Below, in pieces: positions 24,774 to 47,342 of a stretch of 64,000 bases of DNA. Source of the stretch: Tetrapyrgos nigripes. Its lineage: Eukaryota > Basidiomycota > Agaricomycetes > Agaricales > Campanellaceae. The notes beneath the pieces are model-generated. The model was not told the origin of the DNA. It was given only the letters and a program-made list of their open reading frames with translations, and made no database searches. Location of the stretch: the NCBI GenBank assembly GCA_013368315.1, contig JAACJM010000231.1:62001-126000 (forward strand), read 5' to 3'. The position numbers and the translations under genes were made by a program. Within the stretch, counting starts at the first letter, position 1; every line of letters starts with the position of its first letter.

Positions 24774-26037
24774 CACTGGGTGCAAACACTTGTAAATCCT
24801 CTGCTTTACTGAGGTTTTACAAGAGTATTACACCAAGCCAATCAATATGTAAGACTCCTTGTCATACATTAGTATTACAAGAGACAGAAAAAAATTAGAA
24901 CAACCTTGTATGACCATTGTAAGTCACAAAGAAATACCATGGACTTTCAGTGTGACTTGCTGTCACTGTATACCCTTGGTGGATATACTGTGGAATTACA
25001 CAGGAATTTCAGAGTGACTTTTTGTCACAATATGTCATGTAGTAAGACACATAAGAAATACTGGAGTATTTCACTGTGACAGATAATCACAGTATGACAA
25101 ACAGTAAGGCAAGAGAGATTTACAAAGGACTTACAAGGAAGCAAAATCTGCAGGAAATTTACAAAGTGACAATCAAGTCACAGTAATACACTTGTAAGAC
25201 TAGCTGTATTATGAAGGAATTACAAGAAACATTTGCTACAAACACTGGTAAATCCTCAGCCTTACTGGAGTATTACAAGAGTATTATGGGGAACCAATCA
25301 ATATGTAAGTTGGCTTGACTTACAAGTGTATTACAAAATAGACAAAAAATGAGGACTATTCTGAAAGACCATTGTAAGCTGCAAGGACATACCATGGACT
25401 TTCAGTGTGAGGCTTTGTCACAGTATAGCATTGAAGAGCATACAGTGGAATTACAAGGTGACTTTTTTGTCACAGTATGTCTTGTAAAACAGAACTGAAA
25501 TACCAGGGTATTTCAGTGTGAGATAATGTCACAGTAAGACAATTTGTAAACCAAGTAACATTTACAGAGGACTTACCAGAAGGTAGAACTTGAAAGTCTT
25601 GGGTAAGACTGCTCATATTTACACTGAATTTACTGAGGGACATCTGTGTCACAGTAATACCCTAGAAAGACTTGTGATTTTACAAGGGAATTACAAGATG
25701 CAGGTTTTAAAACTCGTAAGTCTCTGGAAAAAACCTGCATGCTAAATGGAGAATATACAGTGTGACAGACTGGTCACAGTAAGACACTTGTAAGTCACAA
25801 GACATTACAATGACTTTACTGAAAAGTGACTATTTTGTAAGTCATCATGTACTGTATATCCAATGGACTTACAAGAGACTTGTTGGATGGATTTGCAGTG
25901 CATGTCAATTAAGTAATACAGAAGGGCTTACTGAAAATTTACAGGATGTAATACAATGAATTCATTCAACCAGGTTAATTAAATTTTACTAAATATAAAT
26001 AGACAGCTCAGGCTAGACAAGAAAAGGACAGACTACT
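24774..26037 (+). repeat. Left terminal inverted repeat with palindrome array
   Basis: Non-coding. It contains at least nine interrupted palindromes of the form GTGAC-N5-7-GTCACAGTA, at about 24952, 25014, 25076, 25166, 25407, 25458, 25519, 25638 and 25759. It also has many TTACAAG/CTTGTAA words. An imperfect tandem duplication of about 455 bp is visible: ctggtaaatcctcagcctta at 25247 repeats 24790, including the following attacaagagtatta and aatcaatatgtaag blocks. These are likely transposase-binding sites. Its reverse complement is at 46132-47342. Confidence 0.9.
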
Positions 26038-26446
26038 GTGTCTGCCTTGTCATCTTCGTCTGCTCAGTCTGTTACATCTGCCCATCTGCCCCATCTGCCT
26101 TGTCTGCTTTGTCTGCCCTGTCTGCCTTGTCTCTGCTCCATCTGCCTTGTCTGCCTTGTCTGCTCTGTCTGCTCTGTCTGCCTCGTGTGCTTCGTGTGCT
26201 TCATCTGCCCTGTCTGCCCCATCTGCCTTGTCTGCCCCTTCTGCCTTGTCTGCCTTGTCTGCCCCGTCTGCCCCATCTGCCTTGTCTGCCCCATCTGCCT
26301 TGTCTGCCTCATTTGCTCTGTCTGCCTTGTCTGCCTCATTTGCTCTGTCTGCCTCGTCTTCCCCGTTTGCCTCGTCTGCCTCATCTGCTCCGTCTGCCTC
26401 ATGTGCCTTGTCTGCTCCATCTGCCTCGTCTGCCTCCACTTATATC
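26038..26446 (+). repeat. TCTGCC 9-bp minisatellite, left arm, outer part
   Basis: About 45 units of a 9-bp repeat with consensus TCTGCCNYG. The first 150 bp or so match the reverse complement of 45330-45475, so they belong to the terminal inverted repeat. Because units are 9 bp without stops, all frames stay open, giving false proteins of SALSALS, LPCLPCL, CLVCLVC or ADEADEA type. Confidence 0.92.
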
Positions 26447-26486
26447 TGCTACATTCATGTATCAATATGGACAGTTGTCCATATTA

Positions 26487-27774
26487 CAGTCATGTACCAG
26501 TCCTTGAGACACAAATTTGAGTTCTGTCTCTAGTACTCGATACATGGCAAATATACGAAATCTTTTTTTCGCAAAGTATCTTGTAAGCTACAATAAGTAG
26601 TATCTAATAGTAGTGGATGTAGCAGAGGAATTTTTTCTTCAAGAAAGTCCAAATGTCACGCTTTCAGGTTCCTTGAGACACTGTGACAATGTTAAGTAAG
26701 CAACCTCAATCCTCATCCATTTCGCCGTCCTCATTCCTCTCATTGTTGCCTTCGCCGCCTTCAGCCCCTTCCTCATCTCCATCAACAGTCTGGGATGCTT
26801 CCCTGTTTGTCCCAATCACGTTTGTCTTGACATAGGCAAACCAATGTTCCACCACATGTTTGTTCAAGGCACCGGCTCTTTGTGTATCCAAGGATTTACT
26901 CCAATAGGTATCAATTTCTGGATGTCGTGCATAGAAGTCGTATAACCATCTCTTGCCTACTTTCTCGTACTTTTCTCCATACTTGTTAAATAGAATATGA
27001 TTTGCGAATTCTTCAATCTGTAATTTCGTGGGCCCCTGGGTGCGATTTCCTAATTTTACGATATGATCTGCGATGATGCGCTCCTCTGCTTCGGTCAGCT
27101 TCTGCTTTGATGCATTGAATTCCTGGATGGTGCGACCTCCCCTCGCTCTTCTGCTTAATGTTGACCTGTCCACCCTGTACTCCAGTGCAATCTTTCGCAA
27201 GCCCTTTCTTTTGTCTTCGGGTTTTTTTTGCTCTTCTGTGTACGCGTTGACTGCTAACTCCAATTGGCCAGCTTTCTGCTGAGATGCGTCGTGGGCCTTC
27301 CTGAGTTGAGACTGTGCTTTCCCTACCATAACAGGCAGGTTTAAATGAAGAGATGATGTGGAGAACGAAGTGGAAATAAATGAAGTGCGATGGTCGTGTC
27401 AAGCTGTCACGCTTTTCGCGACCTTTTTTTTCAACAACTTTCTACCACATTTGTTATCGATCCACTGCCTAAACAAGCATTGGTACTTCAAGATATAATC
27501 CTTATCTTCGTCATCAAGCAAAATTTGGGACCAAAATCACCCTTAAAACAGTCTCCAGACACATCTCAAAATTTGATGCGTCTCAAAATGAGTCAAATTA
27601 GACATTCATCTGGGCACCACACCCGCAAATCTCACTCATGATGGCCAACGCTTTCTCAAAAGATGAAGGTAGTGTATATCTATATTTTTGACTAACTTAG
27701 AAGCAGAAAGAAAGATAGTAATCATAAGATATACATAGATTTTCGCAAGTGTCTCAAGGACCGGTACATGACTG
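26487..27774 (-). mobile_element. Pogo/Fot1-like element, TA target site
   Basis: 1,288 bp bounded by TA duplications (26485-26486 and 27775-27776). Its 26-bp terminal inverted repeats, cagtcatgtaccagtccttg at the left, have one mismatch. It encodes a short DNA-binding protein on the minus strand. Ends and TA target preference fit the pogo/Fot1 branch of Tc1/mariner. It is inserted in the left arm of the foldback. Confidence 0.9.
26706..27329 (-). CDS. Pogo-type transposase DNA-binding region only (Psq HTH plus CENP-B HTH)
   Basis: 207 residues and intact. Residues about 24-68 form a Psq-like helix-turn-helix (LAVNAYTEEQ...KIALEYRVDRSTLSRRARGG). Residues about 80-155 form a CENP-B-type HTH (LTEAEERIIADHIVKLGNR ... 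KVGKRWLYDFYARHPEI). It then ends in a very acidic tail (DGDEEGAEGGEGNNERNEDG) instead of a DDE nuclease domain, which would need some 200 further residues. It could bind the element ends but not cut. Either it is a deletion derivative with a fused acidic tail, or an intron-separated catalytic exon has been lost, because little coding space remains before 26487. Confidence 0.8.
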   Translation of the reverse strand: MVGKAQSQLRKAHDASQQKAGQLELAVNAYTEEQKKPEDKRKGLRKIALEYRVDRSTLSRRARGGRTIQEFNASKQKLTEAEERIIADHIVKLGNRTQGPTKLQIEEFANHILFNKYGEKYEKVGKRWLYDFYARHPEIDTYWSKSLDTQRAGALNKHVVEHWFAYVKTNVIGTNREASQTVDGDEEGAEGGEGNNERNEDGEMDED

Positions 27775-29812
27775 TATCTGATACATCCACAAGGAAAACT
27801 TTCCATAGGCCAAAAAACAGACTGGCCCTACGGGTTATTTCCCACGGCTAGAGTGGGGCACTGGGGGTGGGTCTGGTAGGCCTTTCCTTATCAAGCAGTG
27901 AGCAGAACAGTCCGGGGTTTTTTCCCATGCATGCTAAACAGTGAGCGGGGGCTTTAGGGGGCGGGGGACGGGTTTTTCCCATGCTCCAAAATTTGATAGG
28001 AGGTGCAGGTGATCAGTAGGGCCCCGAATCTGCAAATAGAATAGGGGTATATGCTGTGGCTGGCTCAGAAAATGCAAAATACATTCCTGGAGCCGGCAAT
28101 AAAAAATGATAAAATGACATAAGTAGATACGATAGTGTATTTTGGGTTCCTGAATCTGAATATACACTTAGATTTACAATATCTGCAGTGGTTATTGAGA
28201 TATGGCCAAAATACTGCCCAAAATATAGCAAAAGAGGAGGATGGGTACTAGCCATTGCATCAAATCAGCTCTGATCACCATGTGGTTTGGTAGGGTATTG
28301 CATATAAACTTTCTAAACATGGGAATATGGTTTATTATATTTTATCATCAGGCCCTGAGGAGCTGTACCCAATTTACTGTCAAAAAGCCCAAAACTTCGG
28401 ATGGCCATAGACACTGTATGCTATAGCATCTGATATAACTATGGATATGTCTCCTAGGGTATTTTTGCTCACTGAATCCGAATTTCCACTTGGATGAGCT
28501 CTATATACTCTGGTTCTGCAGATATTGAGTACTTACCCCTAAACATAGGCACCTGTGGCACCTACAAATATGTACCTTATAAAATGGGATGGGTGGGTCT
28601 AAAAGTGCTTATTGATGCTGTAAACACAAATATGAAGTCGTATCCTCTATATGACAAAGATCCAAGACTCTATTTCCAATTTATTGCCAGAAAATTGCCA
28701 CAGAAGCAAAAAAAGTGAAATGGCCATAGACACTGCATGCTATAGCATCTGATATAACTATGGATATGTCTCCTAGGGTATTTCTGGTCACTGAATCTGA
28801 ATTTCCACTTGGGTAAGCTCTATATACTCTGGTTCTGTGGATATTGAGTACTTACCCCTAAACATAGGCACCTGTGGCACCTGGAAATATGTGACTTCAT
28901 ATTTGTGCTTACAGCATCAATAAGCACTTTTAGACCAACCCATCCCATTTTATAAGGTACATATTTGTAGGTGCCACAGGTGCCTATGTTTAGGGGTAAG
29001 TACTCAATATCCACAGAACCAGAGTATATAGAGCTTATCCAAGTGGAAATTCAGATTCAGTGAGCAAAAATACCCTAGGAGACATATCCATAGTTATATC
29101 AGATGCTATAGCATACAGTGTTTATGGCCATCCGAAGTTTTGGGCTTTTTTGACAGTAAATTGGGTACAGCTCCTCAGGGCCTGACGATACAATATAATA
29201 AACCATATTCCCATGTTCAGAAAGTCTATATGCAGTATCCTACCAAACCACATGGTGATCAGAGCTGATTTGATGCAATGGCTAGTACCCATCCTCCTCT
29301 TTTGCTATATTTTGGGCAGTATTTTGGCCATATCTCAATAACCACTGCAGATATTGTAAATCTAAGTGTATATTCAGATTCAGGAACCCAAAATACACTA
29401 TCATATCTACTTATGTCATTTTATCATTTTTTATTGCCGGCTCCAGGAATGTATTTTGCATTTTCGGAGCCAGCCACAGCATATACCCCTATTCTATTTG
29501 CAGATTCGGGGCCCTACTGATCACCTGCACCTCCTATCAAATTTTGAAGCGTGGGAAAACCCCGCCCCTCCGCCCCCTAAAGCCCCTGCTCACTGTCTAG
29601 CATGCATGGGAAAAAACCCCGGACTGTTCTGCTCACTGCTTTATAAGGAAAGGCCTACCAGACCCACCCCCAGTGCCTCACTCTAGCTGTGGGAAATAAC
29701 CCGTAGGGCCAGTCTGTTTTTTGGCCTATGGAAATTTTTCCTTGGGGATGTATCAGATAATATGGACAACTGTCCATGATTGATGCATGAATCTAGCAGC
29801 TATAGCTATTGC

Positions 29813-30762
29813 CTCATCTTCCCCGTCTGCCTCGTCTGCCTTGTCTGCTTCGTCTGCTCCGTCTGCCTTGTCTTCCCCGTCTGCCTCATCTGCCTCGTCT
29901 GTTTCATCTGCTTTGTCTGCCTCGTTTGCCTCGTCTGCCTCATCTGCCTTGTCTGCCTTGTCTTCCCCGTCTGCCTTGTCTGCCTTGTCTGCCCTGTCTG
30001 CCTTGTCTGCCTTGTCTGCTCCGTCTGCCTCGTCTTCCCCATCTGCCTTGTCTGCCTTGTCTGCCCCGTCTGCCTTGTCTGCCTTGTCTACCCCATCTGC
30101 CTTGTCTGCTGCGTCTTCCGCGTCTGTCTTGTCTGCCTGTCTGCCTCGTCTGCTCTGTCTTCCTCGTCTGCCTCGTCTGCCCCATCTGCCTTGTCTGCTT
30201 CGTCTGCCCCGTCTGCCTTGTCTGCTTCGTCTGCCCCGTCTGCCTCATCTGCCTCGTCTGCTCTGTCTGCCTCGTCTGCTCCGTCTGCTCCGTCTCGTCT
30301 GCTTCGTCTGCTCCGTCTGCTCTGTCTTGTCTGCCTCGTCTGCTCCGTCTTGTCTGCCTCGTCTGCTCCGTCTTGTCTGCCTCGTCTGCTCCGTCTTGTC
30401 TGCCTCGTCTGCTCCGTCTTGTCTGCCTCGTCTGCTCCGTCTTGTCTGCCTCGTCTGCTCCGTCTTGTCTGCCTCGTCTGCTCCGTCTTGTCTGCCTCAT
30501 CTGCTCCGTCTGCCTCGTCTGCTCCATCTGCCTCGTCTGCCTTGTCTGCTCCGTCTGCCTCGTCTGCTTCATCTGCCCCGTCTGCCTTGTCTGCTCCGTC
30601 TGCTCCGTCTGCTCTGTCTCGTCTGCCTTGTCTGCCTTGTCTGCTCCATCTGCCCCGTCTGCCCCGTCTGCCCCGTCTGCCTTGTCTGCCGCTCTGTCTG
30701 CCTTGTCTGCTTTGTCTGCCTCGTCTTCCCCGTCTGCCTCGTCTGCCCTGTCTGCCTCGTGA
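29813..30762 (+). repeat. TCTGCC 9-bp minisatellite, left arm, inner part
   Basis: About 105 units in the same orientation as 26038-26446. The two parts are one array split by the foldback. A higher-order unit of 24 bp (tctgcctcgtctgctccgtcttg) repeats about seven times at 30335-30490. All frames are open and give artefactual low-complexity proteins on both strands. Confidence 0.92.
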
Positions 30763-31060
30763 GGCGATTCAGTACCAATATCAAGATACACCTGGTAAGC
30801 CCCACAAACAATATTGCAATATGGGTGGGGGACCCTCACATATCGATGGGGCAGGGGTATTGGGGCCAGTATCGCAATACGGGCTGGGGTCCCCAGGCAT
30901 ATACCATTCCGGGTATTCCCTTGATAGTGCCAGCCACATGCTGCTTATATAAAATTGTAGAAAACCTTTTCTTTTGCCATTTTCCATCATTTATTGCTCG
31001 GCTCGAAACTTTTATTGCTCGGCTGCCTATTTTTCCCGTCTTGTCGGTTCACAGTCCCTT
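30763..31060. repeat. Inner end of the left arm, diverged inverted match to 43490-43837
   Basis: Next to the minisatellite, blocks such as ttgcaatatgggtggg, ggggccagtatc and atacgggctgg align in order with the reverse complement of 43490-43837 (ttgtaatataggtggg, ggggccatatct, atacaggctgg). This suggests the ancestral inverted repeats extended past the minisatellites. Confidence 0.5.
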
Positions 31061-32546
31061 TTGGTATGTACTATATAGTTATCCCACGCCTCCCCACCAC
31101 TCTACCAATGACAATGACTCGCACCACTCTTGGGTCAATCCCACACCTCCCCACCACTCTGCTAACGACAATGACTTGCCCCATCAACAGTGCTTCTGGG
31201 TAACTACTCATTGATTTCTCTTTCAACGCATAACTAATCAACACACTTCCTTCAGTGTCCCAATCGGCGCCAAAGCTCCCCAAGGAGTAGTAAGCAGTGT
31301 TTCGGAGGACTTGAGGACAGGGTACATAACAGAGGGTACACAATGCAAAAGGTGCGCAATCCGCTTGTAAATTCCTTGCATAGCACTTATCTCTTTCCTC
31401 ATTAGTATTGTCAGAGACGAAAGTTCGCTTCCACCAATCACCTCTCTCCCAGGCATTGTTGCTGACAGCGATGATGATCTCCCTCCGCTCGAAGATGATG
31501 ACGGATGCTTATACGACAACTCACACGTTCTAAGGCCTCTAACTCCACAGTCTAACAGCACTGGATCTCAAGCTATGCTCCAAACATACGTTTTCTTCTC
31601 GGACCATGCGATCAATTGACAACTAATGGCTGACTGTCGTTTTCTTCAGACATTTGCTGTTCCTTTCATGTTTCCTATTCAGACCATCATCGTGCTGTCG
31701 TTTGGAGAAGCTCTATCACCGCTCTGTTTACTCTGAACTTCCAGCCTTGGCCCAAGTATGATGACATGCCTATTGGCACATGTAGCATATGACAGTACTA
31801 GTCTTTCTTTCAACAGTTTGAAGGTGCATAGTAAATTGTAATACCAATGTAACCATTCCCATCAAATTTGAATTATTGAACCTTTCAAAACACCTTTTCA
31901 AGGGGTACACATTTGTTAACATCATTAGATATCATTTTTCATTGGCCAGGGGTGAGGGTCCGCTTAGATATTTATGATTAAAGTCTTACATACGAACTAT
32001 GAGTGCTTTATGTATTTACAAGATCAAGTATCCTTCTTCCCCGCTTCACAGTAGTATTTAACTCGTTGGCACTGCAACACTTTCAGCAATACAAGACTCA
32101 ACCCATGGATTGCCTTCTTAGCAGGAACATTCACTAGCGCTAGCAGACCTGTATTCCTGAAGAATTGATGATTTCCGCAGGTTACAAAGTCGCAAGACAC
32201 GTCGTGGTAGACCCTGGTAGACCCTAAGACACCTGCGGGACAGTTTACCGGAAATATCCGACAGTTGATGCAATCTGACAAATTGAAGACCTCTTAAACT
32301 CCACCAAGTCCCATTGAAGTACCCTTCATTAAACGCATAGGTCCACGCATCCTGTTTCTACGTCTTTTTGTAGAAACAGGATGCATGGGCCAACTGCAAA
32401 CAAGTAATACTTATACATGGTTCTAAGCTAGACCTCTACCTGCGTCTAGACTTCTTGGCAGCTCCCGTCGTCTTCGTCTGAGCTTCCTTGGCAACCATAG
32501 ATCGGGTCCTCCTTTCTCCACCTGAGTCGTCGACCACATCAGATTT
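31061..32546. other. Mostly non-coding interior of the element
   Basis: A 60-bp near-duplication occurs at 31081-31190 (cctccccaccactct twice). One possible plus-strand exon reads SLPPITSLPGIVADSDDDLP at about 31416-31475, typical of disordered fungal protein, but no gene can be built around it. On the minus strand 32281-32024 is open without a known motif. Confidence 0.35.
32347..32384. repeat. Perfect 15-bp hairpin
   Basis: GCATCCTGTTTCTAC, an 8-nt loop (gtcttttt), then GTAGAAACAGGATGC. It lies 160-200 bp beyond the 3' end of the minus-strand gene at 32547, so it would form in that transcript as well as in DNA. Confidence 0.85.
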
Positions 32547-35183
32547 TCATTTAGCCCCTCGTGGAGGAGGAGTCATGCCATACTCAATCACTCTGCCCAA
32601 TGTCTCCTCTACATCCCTAGCCAACAGTACCCAGTCTGCAAGCAGGATCCTTTGCTCATCAGATCTTTGCTCACCAACCTCCCCCATAAGCAAATTGAGC
32701 ACCCACACCATACCACAGATAACATGCCAAACCCCGTTATGACCTGAGGTGCGATCTAATGGGGCCCAGTCCTCATCATCAGACTCTCAGATTGGTACGA
32801 CATCTTTCCACCATCCCTTCAAGTCATCCATCAATGCTGTACGTGCCTCATCGTTCTGCACCCGGATATCCGGCAATGCGGGCCTGCCAATTTTCTCCCA
32901 CATCTTCAACAAGCCCAGCTCCTTTTGGCTCTTCACCGAACCATTGCTCTCGGTAAACTGGAACTCCTCCTCGTACTCAATGAACATATCCATCAGCGTC
33001 TCTAAGTCCTCGAAAAAGTCCTCTCTTGGTCTGTCATCGAAGTGCTGTCCCCACACATGCAAATACGTCCGCATTTCCTTCCAAAACTTCCCCTCTTTCT
33101 GATGTTTCCAGGGTACTTCGTCGTCTACTTCCATCTGGTCTTGCTTACTGTTCCTGGTGGATACAGTCATCGACGTTTCATTGGAAGGAGGATTTCCGGA
33201 GTTGGAACTGGTTGGTTCCGAGTCAGTAGTAAGAGTTGATGACATGTCATGTGTACCATGAGGAGAATCGTGAGTAATCCCACAAGAATTGGCACCAGGT
33301 TCCAACTGAGGCACATGGCTTTGAAGAGGAGGGGTACGAGCTGTAGATGGCTGGGAACCAGGAGATTCGGAGGGACTAGGAGTGGGACAAGCTGTAGATG
33401 GTTGAGAACCCGCAGGTTCGGAAGGACGAGGAATGGGATGAGTTGTAGACGGTTGAGAGTCAGAAGGTTTCAAAGGATGGGGAGAGGGTTCGGCAAGATT
33501 GGTAGCCATATCTGTGCATGTAGAAGCCCCCTGGACCCCAGGGTTCATGTTTGCAGAGTTTCGGCTGGGACCTGGTTTTTGTTTGCTGCCTTTGTGAGCT
33601 TTGCTTGTCCCAGAGGATGCTGACATTGATGTATTAGCGGAGCTGCCTTCTGGAAGGTCTGATCTGGTATTAGGGGTACAGTACTTTGATAGAATTGACC
33701 AGTCACTCACTGAAAAGCATTTCGCCAAATCGTACCAGTGAAGACTCTGTCGCTGCATAACCCACAGGGTCATACTTTGGCCAACTCAGTGGTGGATCCA
33801 GTTGACTTTGATCTTGCTCAGAATGGAAGGGTTACGTCCAAAAAACACCGTTGAGACACCCATATTCAAATCCTCAGCCAAAGCTTTGTTAAATTTTGAC
33901 ACCGCCGGTCCCCAACGTTTGAGAGCTCTGCAACATACACGCTGTCAATAAATCAATAGTGAGTCTCCCAAAAAACAGTACTTACACGATCATTTCTTCC
34001 GCAGTCTTCTCATCACGCACGACGTCTTTATTTCCTTCCTCCCAAGATTTCATCGCCACCTCATACTCCTCAGTCTGCTTTTCCTCAATTTCTGCCTTGA
34101 AACTATCACTCTGAGCCAGATAAACGGCCTGGGACACTTCATAATTCATCTTCACTCGGACTGGGGGCTTCCTCTCCTCTGAACTGTTGTTTGCAGTTCT
34201 CCAAGCCACATACTCCTTCTCCACCTTCCTAAACTCTGCATCTGCTTGTGCCTTCACCATTTTCTGATAGTAAAGCCTCTGAAACAGCTGTACTGGGTCT
34301 CCACGAGTTGGTTTGGGCTTCTTCTTCTTGCTTCCGGTCACCACGAGCACTTGGTCCAATATGTCGTTTGGATCTTGAACTCGATGGCGTTCAGCACGGT
34401 AATAGTTGCCGATCTTCTGCTTACAAGGTTTAGTGATGTCGTTATACTTATACAAGTCAAGATATGTACACACCTTCCACATCAAGCTGAAACCGGCTTT
34501 CTTCACTCCTTGCTCTTTGGCAGATAGATTGTACCAGCCAAAATGTTTAGCCACTTGGGTGAAGCTAGCCACATCAAGTATGTGGTCGTCATCAGCCTCA
34601 GCCGGCTTCTCGGTAGCAGAAGATCCGTCTTGAGTAGGATTGGCAGGATTGTTTGTAGCTGTCTTCGTGGTATCATTGGGCTGGGTGGTATCACCGTCAG
34701 GAAAATGAGAGGAAGAACCATTCGACGGCTCCTTTTCTTGAGAGATAGCTGGGCTGGGTAACTCCTGAGCGCCATTTTCACTGTGGCCACCTTGGGAAGC
34801 AGGCGGCTCAGCAGCACCTGACTCGCCGTCCAAAGATCCCTGTTCTGGATTTTGCGATGCACTGGACAAGGCAGAACTATCTTGGGTTCTGGCAGCCTCT
34901 TTGGAAGATAGTCAGACTGAAGAAGCTCCTATGCAGATAATTTACCCTTACCATTGCCCTCTTCCTGCTCTTCCTTAATAATAGCCTTCACGGCTTCGAC
35001 ACCGAATTTGATGTAGAACTTTGTGGTGATAGACGTGTAAAACGTCCCGACCATTCTGTTGTCATCACACTTGATGAACTCCTCCTGATTGTCCTTGAGA
35101 AAGGCTTCATGTTGTGGGTTTTTGGCAACCCAGGACAGAACACCCAGTTTCTTCTTGTCTGCCTTGGTTTTGCAGCGTGTCAT
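32547..35183 (-). pseudogene. Unknown TE-associated basidiomycete protein
   Basis: Four or more exons. Exon 1 (35183 to about 34951) starts MTRCKTKADKKKLGVLSWVA and contains GTFYTSITTKFYIKFGVEAV. Exon 2 (about 34900-33985) is a Ser/Glu/Asp-rich linker, then HFGWYNLSAKEQGVKKAGFS and a charged helical region. The next part (about 33925-33700) reads LKRWGPAVSKFNKALAEDLN and then WPKYDPVGYAATESSLVRFG in another frame, suggesting a frameshift near 33820. A Pro/Ser repeat (SEPAGSQPSTACPTPSPS type) precedes WKHQKEGKFWKEMRTYLHVW. An in-frame TGA at 32787-32789 precedes ESDDEDWAPLD and the final exon, ending TPPPRGAK. I recognise the pattern from multicopy mushroom proteins but know no function. Confidence 0.55.
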
Positions 35184-35600
35184 AGGATGGAGAATGAGAA
35201 GGTAAGCAACAATTGTGTTTTGGTATGGGCTGGGGTAAGTACTTGCGGAATCTGTGAAAATAAAAGTCCAGCCACATAGTTCTAATATACTCGACTTGTC
35301 ACATGTAATACTGGGGTAAGTAAGTACTTGCGGATTCTGTGAAAAAAAAAAATCCAGCCACATATTTCTAATATAAGTTCTCTATTCACTCTTGAAATTG
35401 GGTGTGTTTGCAGCACGTCATAGGATGGAGAATGAGAAGGTAAGCAACGATTGTGTTTTGATACAGACTGGGGTAAGTACTTGCAGAATCTGTGAAAATA
35501 AAAGTCATGCCAAGTAATTCTAATATACACGACTCACATGCGACAGTCTGGGGTAAGTAAGTACTTGCGGATTTTAATATAATTTCCTTATCACTCTCGA
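35167..35600. repeat. Tandem duplication over the 5' end of the minus-strand gene
   Basis: About 236 bp (35167-35402) repeated at 35406-35600, both beginning with tgcagc-gtcataggatggagaatgagaagg. Each copy contains two sub-copies of an about 80-bp unit (ctggggtaagtacttgcgga ... ttctaatata), so the unit occurs four times at about 35228, 35311, 35469 and 35549. The duplicate includes the start codon and presumptive promoter. Confidence 0.85.
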
Positions 35601-35639
35601 AATTGTGCCACTCTTAGTTTACCGGTCCATGTCATGTGA

Positions 35640-37310: not shown

Positions 37311-37319
37311 TAACCAGTC

Positions 37320-38004: not shown

Positions 38005-38128
38005 TGCATTAAGAAATTCTTGTGGCTGTGTGCGTCCATCAGAATTTTCGTACATATATATGTATGGGATTTGTGATCAAACGCATCTCTTTGGGATACC
38101 TTCATCATCAATCCTTGCTCATTCTACC

Positions 38129-39281
38129 ATGCCCTGCAACTCCACCAACCGCAATGCCCAAGATTCCAGCAATGCCCACTGCCTGACTTATCTGCATCAT
38201 CTTCGCCACATCCTAACCATGCCCGATGAAGGTACGTGTGCTGGTATGATTGTCACAATTGCTTCTTGACGTTTTGAGTCAGCGATCCTCATCAGCTCCA
38301 GTGCAATTGGTCAAGACACCATTATCAGAAACCACATTGTCCCTGCTGGTGCTGGTACGTATTACGGGTAGTTTGTATCATCGTCATTGGCTAAACCTCG
38401 GGTCGATAGATGTCATGATTTCCATGTTGCCCACGCCTGGCTTTGGTCGTGGAAGCTTGGATTTGCTGAATGTCTGCCATGATTGCCAACACTATCAAGG
38501 TGTCACTAGGCTTTCCCTGACCCAGGCAGCTTCCGTCTCAACCCTCTTAGGCACCAACCCAACGGGATCCAACGCCGTGCAGACCCCAGTGAATGGCACC
38601 CATGCAGAAGAGTCCTCCACTAGGGAAAGTGCTTCAGAGATCGTACTCGAGGTTCAACAATTGTATCGAGCCTACGTTGTGCCTCCTGCTCCTGATGTTC
38701 TCGCACATGAATACCCTGGCATGGATTATGACCCAGCCTACGTCGTTTTCTGTGGGATGAGGTTGGGTATCTTCCCTGATGCGTGAGTCACCCAAACTGC
38801 CCATATGTCAGTTTTCTAATAATTAACTTGCAGTCAAATCTCAGATGCGTTGATTAAAGGTGTCTCCGGCAGTGATCGGCAAAGTTTTTTGATGTTCACA
38901 AAAGCACGCTTCAACGGCAAATCACTCTCTCCCTCTCCAAAGGTATTACCTCAGGTCCCAAATGTGCTATTCAACGTTAGCAACCCTGCCCTGGTAGGAG
39001 ACTTTTACGTGGTCACTCAGAAAGGTCGCCGACCACAGGTTGTTCCTGTTCAGTCTAATTTTGTCCCTAACGCCAACAAGTAGGTTGCATGCCTGAATGA
39101 CGAGTCTAATTGACGTTTGTTTAGTAATTATCCTCTCAGTACAGGAGTTATTGCTGCGTCGGTTCCTGGGGCTTCAAGGGAGTGGGTTGGAACTGGTGTC
39201 ATTTACATTGACAGTGACTCTGAGGCAGACGAGGAACTTTCTCCTCCTGAAAGTGTCGTAGTTGTGGTGGCTGACGAGTAG
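38129..39281 (+). CDS. Protein with RNase H1 N-terminal/viroplasmin-like domain
   Basis: Start MPCNSTNRNAQDSSNAHCLT; short introns at about 38232-38281, 38356-38410, 38784-38833 and 39082-39125; stop at 39281. The segment DPAYVVFCGMRLGIFPD, followed after the intron by SDALIKGVSGSDRQSFLMFT and KARFNGK (about 38730-38922), follows the pattern of the hybrid-binding domain (YAV-x-GR-x-GI-y-x-W...VxGfxgaxfkxFxxxxeAxxfl). In RNase H1 and caulimovirus viroplasmin this fold binds RNA:DNA hybrids or dsRNA. The N-terminal half is unrecognised and the tail is acidic (DSDSEADEELSPPES). No RNase H catalytic domain follows. Position just upstream of the KDZ gene suggests a partner in transposition, which is inference. 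Confidence 0.65.
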
Positions 39282-39472
39282 TTGAGATCTTGCCAAAAAT
39301 GTATTTCCGTAGATCTAGAGCCACGTGTCGTGTGAATTGATTTCCTCATCATGTCTCTTGATCCCAACCGCAAACTACCTCCTTGTGTAACGATAACGAT
39401 ATATCTCCTTAAGCTAAGCGATGGAGTATTTCTTCACAGCTGAGTAAAACTTTAATCATTTCTCTGCCTGAA

Positions 39473-42400
39473 ATGCCTCCAAGACGCAAGAGACAGTCAG
39501 ATGATGATGGTTGGTATGAAGAGCCCGTTGCAACAAGTACCACCTATGCCATGTCTCAAGATGAACGGAACCAATTACGCCCGTCAACTTGCAGCCCTTG
39601 CCGCATCAAAGCGAATCAGCACATGTTGAAGACCCTCCCCTGCAGACAGATTACCCTGACTTCTCAGCGCTAGGCTTTGATTTTCTCACTTGGGATAACT
39701 CTCAAGATGGTGTTGTCGAGCAAGATGAGGGTCTTTTGGGATTAAGCGAAGCCAAGGATCCAGACACTGCTTATATTGTCCTCAAACCAAAGTTGCATTT
39801 CCATTCAGTGCGTACTTATCCTTTTCGATGATGAAACATCGTTAATAATTGATTCTGCTATTGTGGTTTCAGGATAATCCAAACCGTTCATGGTTGCCTT
39901 TTCGCCAGCAATATTTGGAAGAAATGCTGTGGCTTGAGGGAAAGAGAGGTCTGGGAGGAAAATGCAGTTCGCCAGACTGCACGGAGATACCGACGTTTAG
40001 ATGTGGAGATGATGAATGTTTACTCGCAGGGATGATGTGCCAGGCGTGTATAGTCAAAGCACATGCCCGGCTGCCTCTCCATTGGATTGAGGTGCATATC
40101 CAATCGTCAGTGGATTTTCCAGTTGTTGACTTATATCTCCTCAGGAGTGGAATGGAAAGTACTTCCAATACACCTCTTTGAAGAGACTTGGGTTGACCAT
40201 ACAACTGGGTCATGAACCTGGTGAAACTTGCTTTTTCGAGCAAAGGGGTCACTCAGATTTCACAGTACTTCATACTGACGGCATCCACGAGGTCTTGGTA
40301 GCTTTCTGTGGATGTAATCACACACTTGATCACTGGAAACAGCTTTTACGTGCTCAGTGGTACCCATCAATGGCAGTAAACCCGCAGACAGCAACAACTT
40401 TCGTTTTGTTGCACCAATTCCAACATTGCAATTGTCTTGGAAAGCTACCAGGTTACGATTACTACTTGGCTCTACATATCATGACGGAGAGTCGTTTGAG
40501 GGAGAAGCCAAAGGTGCGTAAAGAAACTATGACTCCTATTAGGAATCATCTCAAGTCTAGATGGGTTTAGGATCGATATCGGGTCCTGTTACGGTCAATA
40601 TTCCAGTGGCGCAATCTCAAGATGGCCAAGCGAGGCGGCCGTGCTCATAGTCCATTGGGAATCGAGGGCACAGCCACAGGTGAACTCGTTTTGCCATGTC
40701 CAGCATGTCTGCATCCAGGCAGAAATATTCCTTCAGACTGGAGGGATAAGCCTTGTGAATTGGCGTATGTCGAGCAGTACTAACAGTTTTCATAGTTTTC
40801 TATACTATCTATTTCTAGCAGTGGATGCTAACTTCCGACTTCGCAACCAAATAGTCTCCAACAATTACCACAGCCCGACACTCGGAGATGGCTGGGCCTA
40901 CCTGGTGCCTTCGGAAGATTACAAGGCACATTTGTCCAGATACGTAGATGAACAAGATGTAAGTGGAAATGTTGATGTTACGCATACATATTAGTTTTCT
41001 GATCTACTTCATATGCCCAGATGAGCAGTTGCTCCAGTTTTGCTGCTATGTTTCTTGCCAATTTGAAGAATGTGAAGGGTCTACAGGTTAGTGGCGTTGG
41101 TGGAGTATGTTGTGGAAGGCATGGTATTTGGCAAAGTAATGGATTGGGAGATCTGCAAAAGGGAGAACGGTAAGTTTGACAATTCTTTGTCACAGCACAT
41201 ACTCATTAAGAGATTCAGATATGCTAACATGGACTTCATGTTCTGGTCAACCATCAAGGATGAGGAGTACCTGTGCATTATTGTATCTTATGACATATCA
41301 TGCCAATGGGGTAAACACTTTTGGACACGTATGGATGCTCTCGATCCGAGTATCAAAGTCAAATTCATGCGCCAAGGAATTGTTTTCATGGTACTGAAGT
41401 TCCACCTGCGTGCGCACCAAGACAAATGTCATGTTCCTTTCTCGTTTGACTTTGCTCCTGGATGTGGTCAAACTCATGGGGAAGTTGTGGAGGAGGGATG
41501 GTCTCAATCGAATAAGGCAGCAGCTCAGATGAAAGAGATGGGTCCAGGAACGCAGGCCATGACCATTGATGACATATTCGGATTTGCTAACTGGAGAAGC
41601 ATCAAAAATCTCGGTAAATGACATTATCTGTCCTCTGTTGATTGTCTGATCTCATCTAATTCTAGATTGTGTACTTGCAAAGCGATTGATCGGTGCTGTT
41701 AAAGAATTCAATGAACATTACGAAGATTTTCACAAATTCGATGCTGGATTGATGAAGGCATTAGGTGGTGATACATTGAAGGACTGGGAGGACATGGTAG
41801 TGGCTTGGGATGAAAGTCATGATAATCCATGCCCATACGAGTCATCAGAAGGCAGTACGTCCTGATTCTTGTTGATCTTCATCTTGGTGATTACTGATCG
41901 GCATTATAGAGAAGGAAAATAATTTTTTCAAGAAGATCCAAGTACAGTTAGCCGAGGAGGAACATGCGCAGATCGCACGTGGTGTAAACATCCATTCTTT
42001 GAGTCTTTGTGCCTTTCTTGTTCAAGGTATTGAACTTCAAGAGATACAGTGAGTCTTTAATCTATTCAATTTAGCTGTTTTTGACATTTCTTTCAGAAGA
42101 AGCATAGAATTATTTATTACAACAAATAAGACGCTGACTCCTACACAACAACTGGAATTACAGAAACGTCGATCATCGGCCCTCAAGATCATTCAATTTC
42201 GGTCCCTCCAACACATCTTGATGCCCCATCTGGTTGATATTCTATCTCCGGATGACATGAAATACATCACTGCCCCTGACACCACTCGTCTGGAAAAAAT
42301 CAGACTTTTCCTTCCTTCAGATCTTGGGACCAATTCACAACAGCAGCGTGCATGTGTGGCTGGCCTAGCTGCAAGTGAAGGGCATTTACAGCGTGTGGAA

Positions 42401-43295
42401 GCATTTGACACACTTGAAGGAATTAGGAGTGGACTGCGGACCCGGACTGCAAGTGCTTGTTACAAGATTTGGAACGTCACAGGGCAAGTATCCAATACAA
42501 AGGCTGGTGGGGTACTGCGCCACATTGATATCCGGATCCACTCGCAAAAGATCCGTTATTGGGTAGCGAGACAGGGCTTGGTGCGACTGATCGGAAAGGG
42601 AAAATGGGAAGATGAGCTGAGGGAGTTGAAGGATCAAGATGTTTGAGGCATGAGTGAATGACAGCTGTCAAAGGAAGAGCAGGCTGAACAAGAAGAACAC
42701 CGTTGTCAAATAGGAATCGACCCAGAGGAGGTGGATGAAGATGACTATTTGGTGGATGAGGGAGTCTATTCGAGAGTTCAGGGAGAGCGCAAGAGAACAT
42801 TGTCATGGATCTGGTATGATGTGACAGTTACGGAAGACGAACCGGGTTTCCAAGATGGTGCGTCATTGTTCTTGTCATTTCATGTTCAACTTCTAAATTG
42901 TATTGGCAGCTATACGTGTAGAGTGGTGTAAAGCGAGAGCTAGGATGCTGCGTTGGAAAGAGAAGGTGATGCTGCTCACAGAGGAGTTACGACGCATGTA
43001 TGAATATTCGATTTGGAAGGGAGAATAGTGGATGGCGAGAAGAGTGGGCGAGCTTGAAGGGCACGCTTCAGATCAGATTTCGGCAGAGCTTTGAGAAGGA
43101 CTTGATGGATATGCTTGGCAACAAACTCAATATGAGGTGGAAGGTGCCTTGAAGGTCCATGCACGGTGGGCCAAGCTGACCGAGCATGCAGAAAAAGTTG
43201 TTGACCGCATCAAGGACCTGCCTACCATTTACTTCGACTTGGAGGACGATGAAACTGAAGCCGAGGAGATGAGAGAGGCTGAGGAAGATATGTAG
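39473..43295 (+). pseudogene. CxC2-type KDZ transposase of the 22.6-kb element
   Basis: About ten exons. N-terminus MPPRRKRQSDDDGWYEEPVA, with a probable frameshift near 39580. The CxC2 zinc cluster spans about 39955-40180 (CSSPDC, FRCGDDECL, CQAC, LPLHWIE then EWNGKYFQYTSLKRLGL). The KDZ RNase H-like fold follows: first acidic residue in LFLAVDANFRLRNQ (about 40810), second in IIVSYDISCQWGK (about 41280), glutamate in GEVVEEGWSQSN (about 41480), with GLGDLQKGER and MGPGTQAMTIDD as further signatures. The intron at about 40516-40570 removes an apparent TAG. After the catalytic core, TGA codons at 42644, 42659 and 43092 and a TAG near 43027 break the C-terminal helical region. The transposase was probably active until recently, since the TIRs are nearly identical, but this copy looks truncated. 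Confidence 0.85.
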
Positions 43296-43349
43296 TGTAA
43301 AAGAATAAATAGTTTTTTCTTTAAATACATCTAAGTGGGCTAAAAAAAT

Positions 43350-43418
43350 GCACACAGAGGGATTGAACCATTGACAGCGCGATCACATGAAGACAATGGA
43401 CCACTAAGCCATGAGGGA
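43350..43418 (-). ncRNA. tRNA-like sequence (A and B boxes), possible SINE head
   Basis: On the minus strand TGGCTTAGTGG (A-box) and GGTTCAATCCC (B-box) are spaced as in a tRNA, with CATG near the anticodon position. Acceptor and T-stem pairing is poor, so this is a tRNA relic or a tRNA-derived SINE rather than a working tRNA. Confidence 0.35.
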
Positions 43419-43489
43419 ATTATAAGGATGTTCTGGGAGGTTATTTACCCCTGTCAACACTCGGACAGTGTTAGCTGCTTCCACACCTT

Positions 43490-43837
43490 GGTAGCTGCAG
43501 AATTAACCCGTGCAACTGATACAGGGAACGAGCTGCCCTGATCCGGCTATATAATGTCATAGGCAAGACCATAAGCGGCCTAGTGGAAATGTCTGAGGAA
43601 TAATGCGTAGCTGAGCAAAATAATATACGTAGCCGATAAAAAAGCTGTTTCTGATATTTCCCTTCTGTTGCCAAGCTTTGTAATACAATAATATCTGGCC
43701 CCTGGGTAGATACCAGCCTGTATCTAGATATGGCCCCAGAATCCACCTGAGAATATCATGGTACAGACCCACCTATATTACAACACTATCCCTGGGGGTA
43801 CTCACCTGTATCACAATATTGGGGCTGCTTAGGGTGG
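43490..43837. repeat. Inner end of the right arm
   Basis: Diverged reverse-complement match to 30763-31060, lying just inside the right minisatellite. No gene seen. Confidence 0.5.
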
Positions 43838-45475
43838 CCTCGTCTGCCTTGTCTGCCTCGTCTTCCCCGTCTGCCGTGTCTGCCTTGTCTTCCCCGTCTG
43901 CCTTGTCTTTCCCATCTGCCTTGTCTGCCTTGTCTTCCCCATCTGCCTTGTCTGCCTTGTCTTCCCCGTCTGCCTTGTCCTCCGTCTGCCTTGTCTGCCT
44001 CATCTTCCCCGTCTGCTTTGTCTGCCTTGTCTTCCCCGTCTGCCCCGTCTTCCCCGTCTGCCCTGTCTTCCCCATCTGCCCCGTCTTCCCCGTCTGCCCT
44101 GTCTTCCCCGTCTGCCCCGTCTTCCCCGTCTGCCCCGTCTTCCCCGTCTGCCCTGTCTTCCCCGTCTGCCTCATCTGCCCCATCTGCCTCGTCTGCCCCT
44201 TCGGCCCCGTCTGCCCCGTCTGCCCCGTCTGCCCCGTCTGCCCTGTCTGCCCTGTCTGCCCTGTCTGCCCCGTCTTCCCTGTCTGCCTCGTCTTCCCCGT
44301 CTGCCTCGTCTGCCTCGTCTTCCCGGTCTGCCTCGTCTGCCCGGTCTGCCTCGTCTGCCTCGTCTGCCTCGTCTGCCTCGTCTGCCTCGTCTGTCTCGTC
44401 TGCCTCGTCTGCCTCGTCTGCCTCGTCTGTCTCGTCTGCCTCGTCTGCCTCGTCTGCCTCGTCTGCCTCGTCTGCCTCGTCTGCCTCATCTGCCTCATCT
44501 GCCTCATCTGCCTCGTCTGCCTCATCTGCCTCGTCTTCCTCGTCTGCCTCATCTGCCTCGTCTGCCTCGTCTGCCTTGTCGTCCCTGTCTGCCTCGTCTT
44601 CCTCGTCTGCCTCGTCTGCCTCATCTGCCTCGTCTGCCTCGTCTTCCTCGTCTTCCTCGTCTGCCTCGTCTGCCCCCTCTTCCCCGTCTTCCCCCCCTGT
44701 CTGCCCCGTCTTCCCCGTCTTCCCCCCCGTCTGCCCCGCCTTCCCCGTCTTCCCCCCCTTCTGCCCTGCCTTCCCCGTCTTCCCCCCCGTCTGCCCCGTC
44801 TTCCCTGTCTTCCCCCCTGTCTGCCCCGTCTTCCCCGTCTGCCCCGTCTTCCCCCCCGTCTTCCCTGTCTTCTCCGTCTTCCCCCCGTCTTCCCCGTCTT
44901 CTCCATCTTCCCCGTCTTCGCCGTCTGCCACGTCTTCCCCGTCTGCCACGTCTTCCCCGTCTGCCACGTCTTCCCCGTCTGCCACGTCTTCCCCGTCTGC
45001 CACGTCTTCCCCGTCTTCCCCTTCTGCCCCGTCTTCCCTGTCTGCCCCGTCTTTTCCGTCTTTTCCGTCTGCCTCGTCTTCCCTGTCTGCCACGTCTTCC
45101 CCATCTTCCCCGTCTGCCTCGTCTTCCCCGTCTGCGTCGTCTGCTTCATCTGCGTCATCTGCTTCATCTGCCAAAGCAGACAACGCAGACAAAGCAGACG
45201 ACACAGACAAAGCAGATGAGGCAGACAAAGCAGACGAGGCAGACAAAGCAGACAAAGCAGATGAGGCAGACAAAGCAGACAAAGCAGATGAGGCAGACAA
45301 AGCAGACAAAGCAGATGAGGCAGACAAAGCAGACGAGGCAGACAGAGCAGACAAGGCAGACAAGGCAGACGGAGCAGAGACAAGGCAGACAGGCCAGACA
45401 AAGCAGACAAGGCAGATGGGGCAGATGGGGCAGATGTAACAGACTGAGCAGACGAAGATGACAAGGCAGACACAG
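43838..45475. repeat. TCTGCC 9-bp minisatellite, right arm, with strand switch
   Basis: About 148 units in TCTGCC orientation (43838-45172), then an abrupt switch to GGCAGA orientation (45173-45475, about 34 units). The outer reversed part is the expected inverted copy of the left arm. The inner part is inverted relative to expectation. Sub-blocks of homogenised units are visible, such as cgtctgcct repeats at 44350-44520 and cttccccgtctgccacgt at 44930-45010. All frames are open, giving spurious several-hundred-residue proteins on both strands. Confidence 0.92.
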
Positions 45476-45477
45476 TA

Positions 45478-46129
45478 CAGTCATTTAGTAGTCCTTGAGC
45501 CAGTAATTTGAATCGAGTCTCTGACACTCAACACTGTGGAATTAGGCCATTCTTTTTTTATTCAGTTGCTCCAGCAACCCCTTGAGTACATTTCTAGCTA
45601 CAGTAAATTGTATGTACAAGTAGTATACTCGTATAGGAAATATTTTATCGAGAAGGTCCAAATGTCACGCTTTTGGAGTCCTTGAGCCAGTGTGACAAGC
45701 GTTATGTAAATGCGTCAATCAAGTCCGAAGGTCGCGTTTGGCTGTCACGCTTTTTGCGGCCTAGTTTTCAAGAGCCTCCCAGTGTATTGCTTATCAATCA
45801 ACTGCCTAAACAAGTATTGGGACATCAAGGGCTAAACATTATCTTCATGATCAGGTAAAATTTTCGGCCACAAAATGCCCCAAAACGATCCCCAGGCGAA
45901 TCCCAAAATTTGACACATCTGAAAATCAGTCAAATTGGACGGTTATCTGGGCACCACACCTGCATATCTCACTCATGATGGTCAAGCTCCTCATGAAAGA
46001 TGAAGGAAGTGTATTTCTCAATTATAGAGTACTTTAGAACCAGAAAATACAATGGGAACTATCAAAAATATACATATTTTCGCGAGTGGCTCAAGGACTA
46101 CGACTGGCTCAAGGACTACTAAATGACTG
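45478..46129. mobile_element. Pogo-like MITE, 652 bp
   Basis: Bounded by TA duplications (45476-45477 and 46130-46131) with inverted repeats of at least 26 bp (cagtcatttagtagtccttg). Internal blocks match the pogo-like element at 26487 (caaatgtcacgctttt, ctgtcacgctttttgcg, actgcctaaacaagtattgg), so it is a deletion relative. There is no coding capacity. Removing it with one TA restores the junction between TIR and minisatellite found in the left arm exactly. Confidence 0.88.
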
Positions 46130-46131
46130 TA

Positions 46132-47342
46132 GTCTGCCCTTTTCCTGTCCAGCCTGAGCTGTCTATTTATATTTAGTAAAATTTAATTAACCTGGTTGAA
46201 TGAATTCATTGTATTACATCCTGTAAATTTTCAGTAAGCCCTTCTGTATTACTTAATTGACATGCACTGCAAATCCATCCAACAAGTCTCTTGTAAGTCC
46301 ATTGGATATACATGATGACTTACAAAATAGTCACTTTTCAGTAAAGTCATTGTAATGTCTTGTGACTTACAAGTGTCTTACTGTGACCAGTCTGTCACAC
46401 TGTATATTCTCCATTTAGCATGCAGGTTTTTTCCAGAGACTTACGAGATAGACTTTTAAAACCTGCATCTTGTAATTCCCTTGTAAAATCACAAGTCTTT
46501 CTAGGGTATTACTGTGACACAGATGTCCCTCCGTAAATTCAGTGTAAATATGAGCAGTCTTACCCAAGACTTTCAAGTTCTACCTTCTGGTAAGTCCTCT
46601 GTAAATGTTACTTGGTTTACAAATTGTCTTACTGTGACATTATCTCACACTGAAATACCCTGGTATTTCAGTTCTGTTTTACAAGAAGACATACTGTGAC
46701 AAAGCCTCACACTGAAAGTCCATGGTATGTCCTTGCAGCTTACAATGGTCTTTCAGAATAGTCCTCATTTTTTGTCTATTTTGTAATACACTTGTAATTC
46801 AAGCCAACTTACATATTGATTGGTTCCCCATAATACTCTTGTAATACTCCAGTAAGGCTGAGGATTTACCCATGTTTGTAGCAAATGTTTCTTGTAATTC
46901 CTTCATAATACAGCTAGTCTTACAAGTGTATTACTGTGACTTGATTGTCACTTTGTAAATTTCCTGCAGATTTTGCTTCCTTGTAAGTCCTTTGTAAATC
47001 TCTCTTGCCTTACTGTTTGTCATACTGTGATTATCTGTCACACTGAAATACTCCAGTATTTCCTATGTGTCTTACTACATGACATATTGTGACAAAAAGT
47101 CACTCTGAAATTCCTGTGTAATTCCACAGTATATCCACCAAGGGTATACAGTGACAGCAAGTCACACTGAAAGTCCATGGTATTTCTTTGTGACTTACAA
47201 TGGTCATACAAGGTTGTTCTAATTTTTTCTGTCTCTTGTAATACTAATGTATGACAAGGAGTCTTACATATTGATTGGCTTGGTGTAATACTCTTGTAAA
47301 ACCTCAGTAAAGCAGAGGATTTACAAGTATTTGCACCCAGTG
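46132..47342 (-). repeat. Right terminal inverted repeat
   Basis: Reverse complement of 24774-26037; aligned stretches of hundreds of bases differ by only a few positions. It carries the same GTGAC/GTCAC palindrome array. The apparent open frames are chance. Confidence 0.9.

Follow-up and report, generated by a model that had tools for sequence, protein, structure and literature searches.

In the 64,000-nucleotide stretch of Tetrapyrgos nigripes DNA that was analysed (the window), a segment of 22,569 bp has CACTA-like ends and contains a KDZ transposase gene, which raises the question of how the two came together. The initial annotation regarded the segment as one giant KDZ-carrying transposon and offered two explanations: that CACTA-like ends may occur on fungal KDZ elements, or that a CACTA-like vehicle carries the KDZ gene as a passenger. 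The terminal features that it described were confirmed. The segment reads CACTGGGTGC...GCACCCAGTG between two copies of TTA, with exact bounds at 24774–47342, and its CACTG/CAGTG ends belong to terminal inverted repeats (TIRs) of ~1.2 kb, which match left to right over 653 bp at 98.9% and then over ~580 bp at 96.9%. The unity of the segment did not stand. In all likelihood, four or more independent DNA transposons, probably five, are nested in it (Table 1), and a single 22.6-kb transposon was rejected, since the KDZ gene sits in a separate nested transposon with its own ends. The apparent giant does not represent a novel type of KDZ transposon; its size is due to nesting, the vehicle itself measuring ~5.5 kb, and so is its odd mix of KDZ, minisatellites and other genes.

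Table 1. Features of the nested locus (positions in the window)
Feature	Position	Strand	Remarks
Composite: outer CACTG element and all nested inserts	24774–47342	.	22,569 bp; ends, TIRs and TSD; ends repeated genome-wide
3-bp target-site duplication (TSD), TTA	24771–24773 (left), 47343–47345 (right)	.	Single TTA in the uninterrupted relative C171
Left TIR, CACTGGGTGCAAA...	24774–26039	+	~1.26 kb; rich in CTTGTAA/TTACAAG motifs
9-bp minisatellite (GTCTGCCTC), first part	26040–26436	.	
Insert with internal inverted repeat	26437–29809	.	Edges approximate; TSD unreadable inside minisatellite
Pogo-like element	26487–27774	-	1,288 bp; TA duplications; within inverted-repeat insert
HTH_Tnp_Tc5 DNA-binding ORF of pogo-like element	26709–27398	-	PF03221, E 4.6e-6
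Minisatellite, second part, up to KDZ insertion	29810–30760	.	Last 7 bases (30754–30760), GCCTCGT, are the left KDZ TSD
KDZ element 7-bp TSD, GCCTCGT	30754–30760 and 43837–43843		
Nested KDZ transposon, GAGGCGATTCAG...CTTAGGGTG	30761–43836	+	13,076 bp; edges fixed by C209 copy
CxC2 cysteine cluster ORF of KDZ transposase gene	40130–40567	+	PF18803, E 1.6e-37
KDZ catalytic domain ORF	41076–41618	+	PF18758, E 9.8e-33; profile positions 96–217 of 217
Minisatellite, third part, right of KDZ element	43837–45172	.	
Inverted minisatellite	45172–45436	.	Second, shorter arm of the palindrome
Pogo-like MITE	45478–46129	.	652 bp; TA duplications; inside right TIR
Right TIR	46132–47342	-	Inner end resumes at ~45437–45477, beyond the MITE
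Target, right part: ORF containing CxC5/CxC6 clusters, which go with a different KDZ family	47346–48097	+	Left part ~24668–24773

The KDZ gene lies in a separate, complete transposon nested in the outer minisatellite. This element (30761–43836) combines the KDZ catalytic domain (PF18758) and a CxC cluster (PF18803) with its own ends and a TSD within the 7–8 bp expected of KDZ elements, whereas the 22.6-kb segment as a whole is flanked by 3 bp. A second copy, C209, is ~95% identical, ends at the same two bases (window 30761 and 43836), lies in other surrounding sequence and has CATAATA on both sides as its 7-bp duplication; no CACTGGGTGC end was found in the flanks fetched. Two non-autonomous relatives of 0.7 kb, C302 (708 bp) and C6 (700 bp), share the ends GAGGCG..AGGGTG and have the 7-bp TSDs TGTCGCT and AGTAATA, respectively. 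A 7-bp duplication accompanies all four KDZ-type insertions with both ends read, two of which are these relatives without a gene; at a third relative of the left end (C235), the ~1 kb beyond it contained neither a second end nor a repeated 7-mer. The KDZ ends are known from these four places, among further KDZ-like places in the genome. The duplication in the window says little by itself, because the surrounding repeat contains GCCTCGT.

These edges bear on two other accounts of the locus. If the KDZ transposase mobilised the whole 22.6-kb element, fungal KDZ elements could have CACTG ends and 3-bp duplications; KDZ is indeed the only catalytic transposase domain recognised among the 10 ORFs scanned, and the CACTG ends with their 3-bp duplication are real. 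However, the nearest KDZ copy repeats the sharp edges and the 7-bp length away from any CACTGGGTGC end in its fetched flanks, the two 0.7-kb relatives repeat the same ends and TSD length, and the KDZ region was matched in none of 19 other outer-element copies examined, four of them seen only in part. We consider this account very improbable; CACTA-like ends on fungal KDZ elements find no support here, where each of the four insertions with both ends read has the separate KDZ ends and a 7-bp duplication. Equally improbable is the capture of the KDZ segment as cargo of the CACTG element by repair or recombination instead of KDZ transposition. In favour of capture, the segment is surrounded by a minisatellite, where such repair events are likely to occur, and the repeat already contains the 7 bases of the duplication; yet the edges of the segment agree to the base with those of C209 and with the termini of C302 and C6, each with a 7-bp duplication, as transposition predicts, which argues against capture by repair. 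Transposition of a complete KDZ element into the minisatellite is the reading that we retain, and the passenger explanation holds in outline, with a whole nested transposon as the passenger and no captured gene.

Without its inserts, the outer element measures ~5.5 kb and consists of TIR, minisatellite, inverted minisatellite and TIR in this order; the minisatellites of the initial annotation were confirmed as 9-bp arrays in four stretches, one of them inverted. Subterminal short repeats are a feature of CACTA/EnSpm (CMC) elements, and the CTTGTAA/TTACAAG motif occurs 14 times in 1,250 bp of the left TIR, against a mean of 0.25 and a maximum of 3 in 1000 mononucleotide shuffles. Together with CACT(A/G)-type termini (CACTGGGTGC at both ends) and the 3-bp duplication, these repeats fit a non-autonomous CACTA/EnSpm-like element, an assignment drawn from ends, TSD and subterminal repeats. 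Transposase-gene content was judged from a Pfam scan of 10 ORFs of the window copy, and since no CMC transposase was found among them, the outer element is at most a non-autonomous member of this group. Its ends are shared by many places: the terminus pattern with up to three mismatches was present at 615 places in the genome (306 forward and 309 reverse, with 0 in the reversed-pattern control), and these terminus counts suggest a family of about 300 copies. The other complete copies read were 3–10 kb long. Perfect 3-bp duplications flanked all 15 complete copies in which both ends match the exact 13-base terminus; one copy with both ends, the right one mutated (C188a), lies between CTA and GGG without a duplication.

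The segment from 26437 to 29809 is probably another nested element. Its 867-bp arms (27775–28639 and 28893–29759) are 96.8% identical, and relatives at 73–84% were present in three of the 19 other outer-element copies (C194b, C238 and C188a). Within it lies a pogo-like element (26487–27774), which has an internal deletion relative to places at C11 and C91. KDZ had been taken as the only transposase-like gene of the segment; its CxC2 and KDZ domains are present, but so is the HTH_Tnp_Tc5 ORF at 26709–27398 on the minus strand. The idea that this ORF provides the CACTG element with an accessory DNA-binding protein was rejected, because the ORF sits within the TA-flanked pogo-like insert. Pogo/Fot1-type Tc1-mariner elements have TA duplications, CAGT ends and HTH_Tnp_Tc5. 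Both inserts in the window share the CAGT ends and have TA at both ends, and HTH_Tnp_Tc5 was found in the first only; they differ in that the first is derived by deletion and its ORF yielded no DDE domain, and the second is a 652-bp MITE. When the flanks of this MITE were joined, they matched the left TIR (26014–26053) at 37 of 40 bases. A viroplasmin-like protein, also named in the initial annotation, gave no Pfam match in three ORF-level tries (E up to 0.5, 0.1 and 1) and is unsupported rather than excluded.

The site entered by the outer element could be compared with an uninterrupted related site, C171, where the joined flanks (440 bases) align over their full length at 85%, with a single TTA; at C230, bases 1–373 align at 84%. 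Joining the flanks extends the CxC5 match from positions 28–116 to 3–116 of 117. From this arrangement, we propose that a non-autonomous CACTA-like element (~5.5 kb, CACTG ends, ~1.2-kb TIRs, core of minisatellite with inverted halves) would have entered the CxC5/CxC6 gene of one KDZ family and produced the TTA duplication. Subsequently, in an order that is not fixed, the inverted-repeat insert would have entered the minisatellite and then received the pogo-like element, the CxC2-type KDZ transposon would have entered the minisatellite with a 7-bp duplication, and the pogo-like MITE the right TIR with a TA duplication. Every member of the nest would have been moved by its own kind of transposase, the outer element presumably in trans by a CACTA/EnSpm (CMC) transposase recognising the CACTGG end and the repeated subterminal motifs.

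In and beside the outer-element copies read, no gene could be shown to belong to an autonomous partner with CACTGGGTGC ends. We judge the chances to be about even that the family is moved by a tnp2-type (Transposase_21) CACTA transposase still in the genome. Transposase_21 has 117 genome matches, 15 of these below Pfam's cut-off; one falls within the 23.9 kb that separate the C96 ends, one directly adjoins a TIR-minisatellite half-element at C79, and one is found at C34, where a CACTGGGTGC left end lies 7.9 kb to its left and ends of a sister family flank it on both sides. The unit of the C96 gene ends in ...CATAGTG, and tnp2 units with a CACTA-type end are thus present in the genome. However, this unit has a CACTATGG-type terminus of its own at its right edge and is found again at C107 (99.6–99.7%), so that, judged from the right edge, it looks nested. 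The C79 gene is without the start seen at C277 (read by eye), and the next 5 kb contain no second end, for which reasons C79 is a likely deletion junction. C79-like genes elsewhere have no match to the outer TIR, at C86 in 3.25 kb 5′ of the gene and at C277 in 3.7 kb upstream or 4 kb downstream. By a rough reckoning, chance alone would put a few of the 117 places between paired ends, and one or two such cases therefore carry little weight. The C96 and C79 genes were rejected as a proven autonomous partner, the CACTA transposase genes in or beside other copies looking either nested or placed at a broken junction. A Plavaka-type transposase is an improbable source. Plavaka is abundant (at least 163 genome matches) and, in the available text of PMC12730594, belongs to the same broad clade and has 2–3 bp TSDs, but its ends are given there as TGT..ACA or CATCA..TGATG, and no Plavaka place was located between CACTGGGTGC end pairs among the matches listed (first 100 of 615 ends), on which ground it was rejected as the partner.

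Once the nesting is undone, the parts resemble published fungal elements. CNIRT6, an active CACTA/CMC element of Cryptococcus, has CACTG ends and 3-bp TSDs of varying sequence according to the accessible part of PMC12810828, as does the outer element in its ends and duplication length; it is ~7.5 kb long, has 24-bp TIRs and encodes a transposase, whereas the outer element has ~1.2-kb TIRs and its own transposase was not found. EnSpm elements of rusts have CAC..GTG ends and 3-bp TSDs in the portion of PMC12730594 available. The same sources give TSDs of 8 or 4–8 bp for Cryptococcus KDZ1–KDZ3 (4–8 bp for KDZ2 and KDZ3; PMC12810828), and of 8 bp for Zisupton and 7 bp for Kyakuja (PMC12730594). 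The nested KDZ element shares with these a KDZ domain, a CxC cluster and ends of its own, and its 7-bp duplications equal the Kyakuja length and fall inside the KDZ2/KDZ3 range. It differs in having CxC2 and GAGGCG..AGGGTG instead of CxC1 and CA..TG, and in TSD length from Zisupton; its GA..TG ends show imperfect inverted similarity, against CA..TG without TIR in Kyakuja. The apparent exception is removed: here, as in the published fungal cases, KDZ elements and CACTA-like elements each retain ends and a target duplication of their own, and genes lying between matching TIRs can mislead classification unless nesting is undone. Two things keep their interest: a CxC2 KDZ element whose ends and 7-bp duplication were measured, and a high-copy, palindromic, minisatellite-filled CACTA-like family moved by a putative outside transposase.

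For this outer family, no minisatellite-filled CACTA or foldback counterpart in fungi was recognised in the literature as judged by titles. The foldback element Tetris of Drosophila virilis, as described in the available part of PMC9659126, is likewise non-autonomous, with inverted terminal repeats and a link to tandem repeats; unlike Tetris, the outer element has CACTA-like ends, a 3-bp duplication and a tandem repeat as the core inside ~1.2-kb TIRs. Over ~1.2 kb, the median left–right TIR identity is 99.4% within copies versus 98.6% between copies. We raise, tentatively and with considerable doubt, the idea that the family forms a large group of CACTA-like elements that are apparently non-coding and palindromic over most of their length. 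Within a given copy, the two arms would evolve in concert, perhaps via a hairpin; such a hairpin, arising in transposition or repair, might let one arm template the other. The sister family, which has CACTGGAGGC ends, occupies 240 terminus places, and the single copy seen contains a different tandem repeat.

The 22,569-bp region that the initial annotation read as one KDZ-carrying transposon holds several nested elements; the CxC2 KDZ element is separate from the CACTG-ended outer element in whose minisatellite it lies, and this nesting explains the apparent KDZ/CACTA combination. The ends, target-site duplications, terminal inverted repeats (TIRs), minisatellites and KDZ gene of that reading were all borne out by sequence comparison and Pfam. 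The outer ends are inverted repeats of each other (653 bp at 98.9% identity, then about 580 bp at 96.9%), and the subterminal motifs CTTGTAA/TTACAAG occur 14 times in 1,250 bp, compared with a shuffle mean of 0.25 and a maximum of 3. The first ~360 bp of each TIR is repeated, about 75% identical, about 460 bp inward (window 24783–25141 and 25239–25582); an old duplication thus seems to be present within the TIR. A Pfam scan of 10 ORFs detected CxC2 and KDZ domains between 40 and 42 kb on the + strand and an HTH_Tnp_Tc5 domain at 26709–27398 on the − strand, so that the description of KDZ as the sole transposase-like gene was inexact; a proposed viroplasmin-like protein received no support from Pfam.

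Coordinates of the elements and repeats (window positions unless a contig is named; a hyphen before or after a sequence marks the element boundary)
Feature	Position	Length	Ends or remarks
Outer element	24774–47342	22,569 bp	TTA-CACTGGGTGCAAA ... TTTGCACCCAGTG-TTA
9-base minisatellites	26040–26436, 29810–30760, 43837–45172		
9-base minisatellite, opposite sense	45172–45436		
Insert with 867-bp inverted arms	about 26437–29809		contains the 1,288-bp element
Element carrying HTH_Tnp_Tc5 gene	26487–27774	1,288 bp	TA-CAGTCATGTACC
Nested KDZ element	30761–43836		
Relative of the 1,288-bp element	45478–46129	652 bp	interrupts right TIR
tnp2 unit	C96:185900–191108 (L042+L028); C107 (L053/L054)		end reads CACTATGGAACCCAAGCCGGGTG in inverse sense; C96 unit lies between CACTGGGTGC ends
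Half-element with tnp2-type gene	C79:31600–40800 (L044/L045)		one CACTGGGTGC end
Sister-family copy	C209:38161–41903 (L039 and L041)		ends also given as CACTGGAGGCAAATCCCTGTAAATC

When the KDZ region was used as a DNA query, a single close copy was detected, on contig C209; it is 94–95% identical over most of its length and lacks 1.3 kb of the KDZ gene. Similarity between the two starts at window base 30761 and stops at 43836, both exactly at minisatellite edges. The window element is flanked on both sides by GCCTCGT and the C209 copy by CATAATA, the latter in surroundings that, read by eye, look retroelement-like. Five more places carry a similar left end, and three were sampled: those on C302 and C6 are non-autonomous relatives of 708 and 700 bp, with ends GAGGCG...AGGGTG and duplications TGTCGCT and AGTAATA, respectively, and no second end was present within the short piece examined from C235. 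All four KDZ-type insertions with both ends read (window, C209, C302 and C6) share ends and 7-bp duplications. In inverted orientation, the left end of the relatives is also similar to the window KDZ element's right end (57 bp at 78.9%).

The outer element belongs to a high-copy family in the assembly searched (98.5 Mb, 587 contigs). Using a 600-bp TIR query, with 40 of 595 candidates scored, we found at least 40 full-length places at 99–100% identity, counting the window copy; allowing up to 3 mismatches, the 25-base terminus occurs at 306 forward and 309 reverse places (reversed control, 0). Twenty sampled loci contained 19 other copies, four of which (C238, C255, C96 and the second C188 copy) had one end only within the sampled DNA. 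The exact 13-base terminus was present at both ends in 14 of the 19, and these and the window copy all have identical 3-bp flanks (15/15: TTA in four copies; CCA and TAT in two each; ACT, ATA, AGA, ATT, TGA, TAA and CTA in one each). The flanks of the other C188 copy, C188a, whose right end is mutated, do not match (CTA and GGG). The other copies consist of TIR, minisatellite and TIR, with further inserts in some, and the 14 intact-ended ones measure 3.2–9.9 kb, a range that includes the ~5,459 bp left of the outer element without its nested inserts. As for whether other copies share KDZ, a check proposed in the initial annotation, a comparison of the 19, four of which were incompletely sampled, with the KDZ region gave no match at E 1e-10.

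Among the smaller inserts, the 1,288-bp element has its middle deleted in comparison with the C11 and C91 loci, the joined flanks of the 652-bp insert agree with the left TIR in 37 out of 40 bases, and three of the 19 non-window copies contain relatives (73–84%) of the insert with 867-bp arms. The minisatellite flips sense inside the core in all five copies profiled (C21, C27, C98, C106 and the window). Left and right TIRs compared over ~1.2 kb have a median identity of 99.4% within copies and 98.6% between them (14 copies, leaving out C42 for an interruption in its left TIR); the first 640 bp alone give 99.3% and 99.1% (15 copies). The slightly higher likeness within copies hints at conversion between arms. 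Very long reading frames stay open on both strands of the 9-bp minisatellite, as at 2528–8599 of the sampled piece L020 (more than 2,000 codons in one frame) and at window 43837–45172, and such low-complexity ORFs may be wrongly taken for genes.

Dense subterminal motifs, like CACTG ends and 3-bp duplications, are features of CACTA/EnSpm elements. PMC12810828 describes CNIRT6, an active Cryptococcus CMC element with 24-bp TIRs, which shares with the outer element a CACTG start and 3-bp duplications, and gives duplications of 8 bp for KDZ1 and 4–8 bp for KDZ2 and KDZ3. PMC12730594, on fungal transposons, lists CAC..GTG ends and 3 bp for rust EnSpm families, 8 bp for Zisupton, 7 bp for two Laccaria Kyakuja families, which have CA..TG ends and lack TIRs, and CATCA or TGT ends for Plavaka. 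The outer element is classed here as CACTA-like and non-autonomous, and the nested one as a KDZ element. The suggestion that fungal KDZ elements can have CACTA-like ends is not upheld here. Neither element breaks these published end and duplication rules; what remains of interest is the high-copy palindromic outer family and a CxC2 KDZ element with a 7-bp duplication.

No autonomous partner of the outer family was found among the tnp2 (Transposase_21) loci followed and the Plavaka matches listed, none of the latter lying between the outer-family end pairs listed. The genome has 117 tnp2 matches, 15 of them below Pfam's cut-off. One lies between the C96 ends, which are 23.9 kb apart; because the similarity to its near-identical copy on C107 (99.6–99.7%, 2.1 kb compared) stops at a ...CATAGTG terminus, this unit, one edge of which was read, appears to be a nested CACTA element with an end of the CACTATGG type. 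On C79, a tnp2-type gene lies directly inside a TIR–minisatellite half-element, with one frame open across the junction; a second end is absent from the next 5 kb. The C79 gene lacks the N-terminal part that was read by eye on C277, and the flanks examined of related tnp2 genes on C86 and C277 show no match to the outer-family TIR. On C34, a CACTGGGTGC left end is followed, 7.9 kb to the right, by a tnp2 match that lies between two ends of a sister TIR family.

This sister family, with ends CACTGGAGGCAAATCC, has 240 terminus places (123+117; control, 0). Its C209 copy, at a distance of 1.7 kb from the second KDZ element, carries a different, GTCCAGAGTGCGCGCAGGTTGC-like tandem repeat and includes a short TIR stretch 79% like that of the window's outer element.

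The outer flanks, joined with one TTA, make a 440-bp sequence that aligns over its whole length with C171 (85% identity) and over 373 bp with C230 (84%). The outer element interrupts a CxC5/CxC6 gene, whose match to the CxC5 profile extends from positions 28–116 when interrupted to 3–116 when joined. The outer element thus sits in a gene that belongs to one KDZ-associated family and itself holds a KDZ transposon of another. Elsewhere in the window, a 99-bp tandem array at 1319–2172 (89% matches) codes for ankyrin repeats (Ank_2, E 2.9e-66), and a protein kinase domain (Pkinase, E 8.9e-20) lies at about 51069–51617 on the + strand.
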